DNA of 64,000 nucleotides, from the NCBI GenBank assembly GCA_903910445.1, contig CAIVZR010000025.1:1-64000 (forward strand), in the 5' to 3' direction. The notes beneath the pieces are model-generated. The model worked only from the letters and a program-made list of their open reading frames with translations. It searched no databases and had not been told where the DNA came from. Of this stretch, positions 56,641-57,276 are shown piece after piece. Position 1 is the first letter of the stretch. Each line of letters begins with the position of its first letter. This stretch comes from an uncultured Bacteroidota bacterium. Lineage in GTDB: Bacteria; Bacteroidota; Bacteroidia; UKL13-3. The position numbers and the translations under genes were made by a program.

Positions 56641-56672
56641 AAAAAAGGGTTCCACTTTCGTGAAACCCTTTG
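56641..56672 (-). terminator. Terminator retained beside the altered tRNA-Pro copy
   Basis: The stem AAGGGTTCCAC / GTGAAACCCTT closes over TTTC with one internal wobble. Read on the minus strand, it runs into a T-rich tail. Compared with the terminator of the intact tRNA-Pro, the loop-closing pairs have changed on both sides (CAC/GTG against CAG/CTG), so pairing is preserved. Confidence 0.8.
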
Positions 56673-56681
56673 TGGGATTGG

Positions 56682-56777
56682 TCGGGGTGGCAGAGCCTGC
56701 CCCGAAACTTGTTTCGGGAATTCGAACCTATAGACCTTCCCGACTTTTCAAGTCGGGAAGGTGATGCCGGGCTACAC
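56682..56777 (-). pseudogene. Altered tRNA-Pro copy carrying two palindromes
   Basis: On the plus strand it begins TCGGGGTGGCAG like the 3' end of the intact tRNA-Pro. The palindrome CCCGAAACTTGTTTCGGG (56701-56718) then interrupts the T-arm side. ATTCGAACCTATAGACC keeps the T-loop. A 13-base perfect hairpin (56734-56762, ACCTTCCCGACTT / AAGTCGGGAAGGT) takes the place of the anticodon arm. ATGCCGGGCTACAC keeps part of the D-arm and 5' end with about five bases missing. It cannot form a normal tRNA. Confidence 0.75.
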
Positions 56778-57020
56778 TTTAAGAATTAATCTTTCAATAT
56801 AGATTCTGCTTTTTTTATTTTTGATTTCACGTTCTCTTTTGAGGGCATCTTGCTTATTATTGAAAGTCTCTGAATGCACAATTTTCCAATCATTTGCTTT
56901 TCCTGTAAATCCATCATGATTGGAATTATGCCTTCTTAATCGCTCACTTAGTTCATCGCCTGTTGATCCAACATAATATTTATTTGTAATATTTGAGAAG
57001 AGAATGTATCAATAGTACAT
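56772..57020 (-). pseudogene. GIY-YIG endonuclease-like gene broken by a stop at codon 4
   Basis: The minus-strand frame reads M-Y-Y-stop-Y-I-L-F-S and then [39 protein letters not shown] and [20 protein letters not shown]. This is the small URI/UPF0213-type GIY-YIG fold. YIL corresponds to the GIY strand and YYVG to YIG, with Arg in LSERLRRH and the late Glu region present. The fourth codon is TGA where Val is usual (MYYVYIL). No other start upstream of the GIY strand is in frame. The stop codon TAG at 56772 lies within the 5' remnant of the altered tRNA-Pro, so gene and tRNA copy overlap. An intact protein would be about 82 residues. Confidence 0.8.
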
Positions 57021-57058
57021 ACTAAGAAATCTGTTTTTTAAAGTTTTATTTAATCAAT

Positions 57059-57092
57059 AAAAAAGGGTTCCAGTTTCCTGAAACCCTTTGTG
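57059..57092 (-). terminator. Terminator of tRNA-Pro
   Basis: The stem AAAGGGTTCCAG / CTGAAACCCTTT with loop TTTC is followed on the minus strand by a T-rich tail. It sits just downstream of the tRNA-Pro 3' end. Confidence 0.85.
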
Positions 57093-57099
57093 GGATTGG

Positions 57100-57173
57100 T
57101 CGGGGTGGCAGGATTCGAACCTACGACCTTCTGCTCCCAAAGCAGACGCGATACCGGGCTACGCTACACCCCG
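57100..57173 (-). tRNA. tRNA-Pro (anticodon TGG)
   Basis: The minus strand gives a complete cloverleaf: acceptor stem CGGGGTG / CACCCCG with discriminator A, an anticodon arm TCTGC-TTTGGGA-GCAGA with anticodon TGG, and a T-arm with GGTTCGAATCC. CCA is not encoded. It is 74 bases long. A terminator follows directly. Partial, palindrome-bearing copies of the same tRNA lie on both sides. Confidence 0.95.
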
Positions 57174-57229
57174 AAATTTATTCTTTTCATTTTGTTTTTA
57201 TTTATCAAAATATCTTCTCGATTTCAAAT

Positions 57230-57276
57230 CAGACAAGATACCGTCCCGATAGCTATCGGGATACGCTACACCCCGA
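57230..57276 (-). pseudogene. Partial tRNA-Pro copy (5' half) with an 18-base palindrome
   Basis: On the plus strand AGACAAGATACCG is followed by the perfect palindrome TCCCGATAGCTATCGGGA (57244-57261) and then TACGCTACACCCCGAAAA. In the intact tRNA-Pro the same flanks read AGACGCGATACCG-GGC-TACGCTACACCCCGAAA. The palindrome therefore replaces three D-loop bases. The other half of the tRNA is absent. Confidence 0.75.

Follow-up and report, generated by a model that had tools for sequence, protein, structure and literature searches.

Bacterial group I introns insert in tRNA genes at the anticodon loop, and integrative elements and islands employ a tRNA gene as their att site, which is kept intact by sequence that the element itself carries. 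The UPF0213/YhbQ-like and SLX1-like GIY-YIG proteins are not known as tRNA-gene-associated mobile genes. Two described systems come closest to the loci considered here. The first is SegB of the T4/T6 phages, a free-standing homing enzyme of the GIY-YIG type, which has its cleavage sites in tRNA genes and promotes the joint amplification, in tandem, of the tRNA and segB (PMC13096335). The second is formed by the fungal mORFs, which bring a replacement 3' end to their host gene and push the native one downstream, as in Allomyces atp6 and in Glomus atp6, atp9, cox2 and nad3 (PMC3630166). Some bacterial group I introns are also described as encoding homing endonucleases (PMC3984707). A 2006 survey of the GIY-YIG superfamily mentions neither Bacteroidetes nor linkage to tRNA genes (PMC1564403), and searches of the open-access literature turned up no earlier account of GIY-YIG genes linked to tRNAs in Bacteroidota, so that a description elsewhere is possible.

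The locus studied here lies in a 64-kb window, i.e. the whole stretch of Bacteroidota DNA that was analysed, and its region comprises the following features:

57421-57333, minus strand: tRNA-Ser
57207..57275, minus strand: upstream altered tRNA-Pro, consisting of a 5' part (57275-57262), a palindrome and then a degraded remainder
57244..57261, strandless: perfect 18-bp palindrome TCCCGATAGCTATCGGGA inside the upstream altered tRNA-Pro
57097..57173, minus strand: intact tRNA-Pro(TGG) (ARAGORN; Rfam tRNA, 67.3 bits)
57059..57089, minus strand: intrinsic-terminator-like hairpin and T run 3' of the intact tRNA-Pro, recognized from the sequence
56772..57020, minus strand: GIY-YIG nuclease frame, a probable pseudogene (Pfam GIY-YIG, 53.9 bits, full domain aligned)
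56679..56777, minus strand: downstream altered tRNA-Pro, with a palindrome in place of the anticodon arm and a second palindrome splitting the T arm
56738..56758, strandless: palindrome at the position of the anticodon arm, TCCCGACTTGAAAAGTCGGGA on the minus strand
56701..56718, strandless: second palindrome, in the T arm, CCCGAAACAAGTTTCGGG on the minus strand
56641..56671, minus strand: terminator 3' of the downstream altered tRNA-Pro

Read along the minus strand, the order is thus a tRNA-Pro 5' part with a palindrome, the intact tRNA-Pro, a terminator, the GIY-YIG frame, the altered tRNA-Pro and a further terminator, which confirms the layout of intact and palindrome-altered copies around a GIY-YIG frame given in the original prediction. 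The stop codon of the frame (TAG at 56774-56772) indeed lies inside the altered tRNA copy. The GIY-YIG domain claimed there is equally real, but the gene is not intact: an in-frame TGA occurs at codon 4 (57011-57009) and there is no ATG, GTG or TTG between it and the active-site motif, so that this copy is probably a pseudogene. Judged by these defects, the tRNA-Pro element of the window is probably dead, a decayed copy. The tRNA end together with its terminator constitutes a 56-nt repeat with 95% identity between the two window copies. Palindromes of the form CCCGA..TCGGG occur three times in the 64-kb window, all of them inside the 0.6 kb of this locus, a number that was never attained in 100 shuffles. 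No group I intron match was found at the locus among Rfam hits with E up to 10. Comparison with an empty tRNA-Pro site of the same genus (L288) is suggestive and agrees with an insertion at the window locus on the left flank only: the stretch that precedes the upstream altered copy is similar to the L288 promoter, and the terminators of the right flank are too alike to tell host from element. The arrangement of the upstream altered copy matches that seen at tRNA-Ala in L321 and L309, and by analogy with L364, L244 and L321 (see below) the terminator at 56641..56671 might be the displaced terminator of the host. The window also has tandem 73-nt units and a run of the 7-mer TAAATAC (58043-58307), which lie upstream of a small gene (57670-58008).

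Elsewhere in the same genome, an intact 94-aa GIY-YIG gene (L001) has on one side an intact tRNA-Asp followed by its terminator and on the other an altered 3' part of tRNA-Asp bearing the palindrome TCTCGGCTGAGCCGAGA; at tRNA-Met (L017) and tRNA-Val (L009), palindrome-bearing altered copies follow the intact tRNA and no nuclease gene is present. Searches with the Asp nuclease as query recovered matches in 131 of 196 related genomes, and a profile of 27 sequences recovered matches in 264 of 395 genomes across the phylum Bacteroidota, with no match to it in the other 131 genomes sampled. For contig scans a Val/Pro subset profile was used, since one that covered all clades was too diverse. A set of 232 distinct small GIY-YIG clusters was collected, and among those away from contig ends a same-strand tRNA lies within 400 nt of 160 out of 188, at a median distance of 55 nt. 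The original prediction had pointed to an excess near tRNA genes as a means of recognizing a mobile element, and the element clade of the nuclease tree is overwhelmingly tRNA-adjacent, with 181 loci having a tRNA, 15 lacking one and 15 undecidable at contig ends. By comparison, another small GIY-YIG clade of 15 members has a tRNA neighbor in none of its 13 decidable cases, and in a whole-Pfam-family search of 12 genomes the corresponding counts are 20 of 24 for the element clade versus 0 of 13 for the other clade. One small GIY-YIG ORF of the tRNA-less clade (L002; G000:C4, 1-2031) has long imperfect direct repeats on both sides (with CTCCTTCGTCGAG).

Nucleases of the element clade are about 80-130 aa in size, at least 13 kinds of tRNA are used by the family, and the nuclease typically has an intact tRNA on one side and an altered version of that same tRNA on the other. 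Tandem arrays include ten units of 457 bp after tRNA-Met (L048), eight units of about 410 bp after tRNA-Asn (L050) and five units of about 365 bp (L227); L048 and L050 have a single intact tRNA, followed by units that each terminate in an altered copy. The number of arrays is at most 68, an upper bound because some clusters with two hits are one frameshifted gene. Several contigs of related genomes (L287, L289, L295, L294) stop at or just beyond tRNA-Pro or tRNA-Asp; short-read assemblies probably break at arrays, and copy numbers may thus be underestimated. In a second arrangement (L027, L028, L059, L063) the altered copy and nuclease lie upstream of the intact tRNA, with duplicated upstream sequence where this is visible. 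These loci largely group together on the nuclease tree, and the side of the intact tRNA taken by the nuclease is largely clade-specific. No family matches were found in phage records, and plasmid records yielded distant matches only, in other phyla. Two viral contigs (L339, L340) have a Val/Pro-type nuclease at the very contig end, which is perhaps the host flank of prophages near tRNA genes.

Comparisons of empty and occupied sites, all of them between species, bear on the insertion itself. The cleanest pair comes from the tRNA-Met gene beside era in genus g70, where the occupied L364 differs from the empty L378 by a 364-bp insertion inside the tRNA gene, with flanks identical at 243 of 247 and 198 of 200 positions (98-99%). 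This insert contains a single GIY-YIG frame and nothing else. In L364 the altered copy is followed by the terminator of the empty L378, and likewise in L244 by that of the empty L357 and L361, whose sequence is unlike that of L378. In both L364 and L244 the inner and outer terminators are unrelated. The terminator 3' of the intact tRNA is common to L244, L364 and L227, the last being at a different tRNA-Met gene (29 of 74 positions shared), and hence it travels with the element. In the same genus, most species have an empty tRNA-Ala gene beside an enoyl-CoA-hydratase-like gene, and five of the loci retrieved carry the element there. Relative to the empty L320, the occupied L321 has the host promoter before the upstream altered copy (56 of 60 identical) and the host terminator after the downstream altered copy (50 of 58); the promoter and terminator around the intact tRNA are not those of the host (26 of 33 and 33 of 49 in gapped alignments). 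The pairs L378/L364, L361/L244 and L320/L321 therefore show insertion at a specific site of a conserved gene that is empty in relatives, and an intact tRNA is predicted beside the well-resolved element copies. At the level of sequence, these comparisons establish insertion inside tRNA genes and an element-borne terminator.

The suggestion of a tRNA-associated mobile element thus gains support from both the tRNA linkage of the nuclease clade and the occurrence of orthologous empty and occupied sites in one genus, at tRNA-Ala as well as tRNA-Met. It has to be refined in that the insert sits within the tRNA gene, in the region of the anticodon and variable arms. The alignments of the resolved cases further indicate that the 3' part and terminator of the intact tRNA are carried by the element, and that the palindrome-marked copy holds the displaced host part. 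The same terminator follows both copies in about half of the loci examined. Two tRNA-Met genes with an element-type terminator and no nuclease (L365, L374) are likely to be scars of lost elements. The T-run end of the terminator was considered as a fixed insertion boundary, but the ends of similarity vary and do not support it. The idea of immune alleles was also dropped, as the tRNA-Ala anticodon-stem variants CTTGC and CTACG fail to separate occupied from empty sites.

The phylogeny of the nuclease tracks tRNA identity more than host family. On the nuclease tree tRNA identity requires 40 changes, and none of 200 shuffles requires fewer than 102; host family requires 68 versus at least 86 in shuffles for the subset of coded genomes; the tree is based on about 76 columns, and its deep branches are uncertain accordingly. 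In 48 of 50 comparisons, the nuclease is closer to a same-tRNA nuclease from another family than to the other-tRNA nuclease of its own genome. The dN/dS of the nuclease has a median of 0.15 and none of 47 pairs reaches 1, indicating purifying selection; this and the tRNA specificity of the clades are, as far as sequences can tell, well established. Membership in the GIY-YIG superfamily is evident from Pfam PF01541 scores above the cut-off and from the conserved Tyr, Tyr, Arg and Glu, and residues Y2, Y13, G15, R24, H28 and E60 are invariant in 27 sequences. The predicted fold (pLDDT 89.5; a 76-position model) is a bare GIY-YIG domain, with UPF0213 and the I-TevI catalytic domain as the closest folds, and 1zg2, 1ywl and SLX1 as the closest solved relatives by sequence and fold, SLX1 through sequence matches. 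No DNA-binding tail of the homing-enzyme type is recognizable in the nuclease, which is essentially the catalytic domain alone; such a bare domain, as modeled, sits badly with a simple site-specific homing model.

The altered copy is closer to its cognate tRNA than to 20 non-cognate tRNAs in 117 of 165 loci, and a palindrome either takes the place of its anticodon region or interrupts it. Within 120 nt downstream of the nuclease, palindromes with arms of at least 8 occur in 48% of loci versus 2.5% of shuffles. The tRNA-Val elements have, at a fixed position and in place of the anticodon arm, palindromes of many sequences with the form TCCCGA..TCGGGA. Among 50 unique palindromes, chosen because their outer five pairs are symmetrical, pairing at positions 5-8 amounts to 89%, versus a mean of 72% and a maximum of 79% in 1000 shuffles; since position 5 belonged to the selection, positions 6-8 are the informative ones, and there the changes are mostly Watson-Crick with almost no G-T pairs. 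The notion that the palindromes are an exclusive part of the element was rejected, since TCCCGATAGCTATCGGGA is scattered elsewhere and also occurs within the nuclease genes of one array. In G161 (30 copies), G283 (7 copies), G237, G155 and others, it stands singly, away from tRNA and GIY-YIG genes (L342-L351, L353-L356). These solitary copies could possibly represent a separate tiny palindromic repeat, and the palindrome may therefore have a separate origin. In L341 (G248:C44), it splits the nuclease genes of three tandem units that follow tRNA-Met (one copy per unit, at 1501, 1904 and 2307), which implies that these units were amplified although their nuclease looks broken. In L316 and L318, tandem altered tRNA-Ala copies of about 83 nt each, devoid of a GIY-YIG gene, are placed directly upstream of an intact tRNA-Ala.

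Taken together, the family probably represents tRNA-specific, free-standing homing-endonuclease elements, of which the window copy would be a decayed member. We infer nuclease cleavage and its position, homing through repair of the break, a function for the palindrome and a route between species, in the following form. A complete unit of about 360-460 bp would comprise a tRNA 3' part with its terminator, a minimal GIY-YIG gene and a short tRNA 5' piece ending in the palindrome. As a putative first step, the nuclease would cut an unoccupied tRNA gene in the region of the anticodon and variable arms, and the unit would be inserted through repair from an occupied copy. The host 5' part, joined to the element 3' part, would restore an intact tRNA, and the displaced host 3' part with the host terminator would remain downstream, attached to the palindrome. 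In some clades insertion might occur on the other side, leaving the altered copy and nuclease upstream of the intact tRNA. Re-cutting of the intact tRNA, with out-of-register repair from the altered copy, could add extra units and yield tandem arrays, which would explain the arrays with one intact tRNA. By removing the anticodon arm, the palindrome would both destroy the target in the altered copy and prevent a second working tRNA; the anticodon arm is lost from the altered copies and kept in the adjacent intact tRNA. That the intact tRNA beside the nuclease retains the presumed target sits badly with a simple homing model and counts against it. A speculative and rather doubtful extension is that of a new class of about 360 bp, in which the bare catalytic domain of 80-95 aa would owe its specificity for tRNA genes to its own palindrome-bearing pseudo-tRNA rather than to a DNA-binding tail, the pseudo-tRNA acting as a DNA cruciform or a transcribed RNA, with pseudo-tRNA units that lack a GIY-YIG gene thereby being amplified in trans.

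Several of the same observations would also arise if tandem duplication came first, with one copy of a duplicated tRNA decaying, a nuclease unrelated to movement occupying the redundant spacer and arrays growing through unequal crossing-over. Plain tandem duplication also produces terminators that are near-identical after both copies, as in about half of the loci, and it would accommodate altered copies that lack a GIY-YIG gene, two of which are in the genome of the window itself, as well as the arrays in which a palindrome-interrupted nuclease was still amplified. However, this origin is improbable in view of the unrelated terminators of L364 and L244, of which the outer is that of the host and the inner is common to the element at a different tRNA-Met gene. 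Furthermore, the nuclease clade matches tRNA identity across families, the nuclease is under purifying selection, and the decay of altered copies is non-random, given the fixed palindrome position in tRNA-Val elements.

It is also quite improbable that the units are transposon-like, structure-guided elements, in which the palindrome is a terminal recognition structure, an SLX1-like GIY-YIG protein cuts hairpins or cruciforms and tRNA homology merely guides the site of recombination. The sequence matches to SLX1 structure-specific nucleases would fit such an element, as would the anticodon-position palindromes, which keep their inner pairing as their sequence changes, and the tandem altered units without a GIY-YIG gene. 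Against this, the same class of palindrome is found alone at non-tRNA sites, the insert is not framed by a conserved pair of terminal repeats, and the tRNA specificity of the nuclease clades suggests recognition of tRNA sequence. That nuclease and altered tRNA benefit the host, as an anti-phage system or one for tRNA quality control, instead of being selfish is very improbable, as purifying selection and the conceivable role of altered-tRNA arrays as decoys for tRNA-cleaving enzymes are offset by patchy presence at orthologous sites within one genus, the absence of matches from a third of the sampled Bacteroidota genomes (131 of 395) and frequent pseudogenes, including the copy of the window.

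Understood as tRNA-specific homing-endonuclease elements, the present family is reminiscent of SegB in combining a GIY-YIG nuclease, a tRNA-gene target and tandem amplification of tRNA and nuclease. SegB is phage-borne and resides in a tRNA cluster, whereas the present nucleases are chromosomal and consist of little more than the catalytic domain; the replacement tRNA parts, the terminator of its own and the palindromes belong to the present family and are not described for SegB in PMC13096335. As in the mORFs, an endonuclease gene within a host gene is accompanied by a replacement 3' portion, with the native 3' portion displaced and a hybrid gene formed. The mORFs differ in having mitochondrial protein-coding hosts, larger inserts and no described palindrome mark, whereas the present family occupies bacterial chromosomal tRNA genes. 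Unlike in group I introns, there is no splicing and the intact tRNA gene is restored at the DNA level. Unlike in tRNA-targeting integrative elements, the 364-bp insert is too small for an integrase or another gene, and the junction lies in the anticodon/variable arm and bears a palindrome. Unlike in a transposon or insertion sequence, neither transposase nor terminal inverted repeats are present, the insert amounting to one GIY-YIG frame. A group I intron, an integrase element and an insertion sequence are thus each excluded as the identity of the unit by the insert content or by the lack of an intron RNA match at the window locus. In conclusion, the family joins a SegB-like target to an mORF-like architecture, at a smaller size (about 360 bp) and in bacteria, and its palindrome-marked pseudo-tRNAs are new.

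If this reading is true, a mobile family present in about two thirds of the sampled Bacteroidota genomes would so far have been overlooked, because its genes are tiny and its remains resemble tRNA debris. It would rank among the smallest self-contained mobile elements and imply that a selfish gene needs neither splicing nor an integrase to live in essential tRNA genes. The means by which a bare catalytic domain might attain tRNA specificity would then become directly testable. The family may also account for the odd GIY-YIG tandem repeats, tRNA-like fragments and terminator turnover in the genomes of Bacteroidota.
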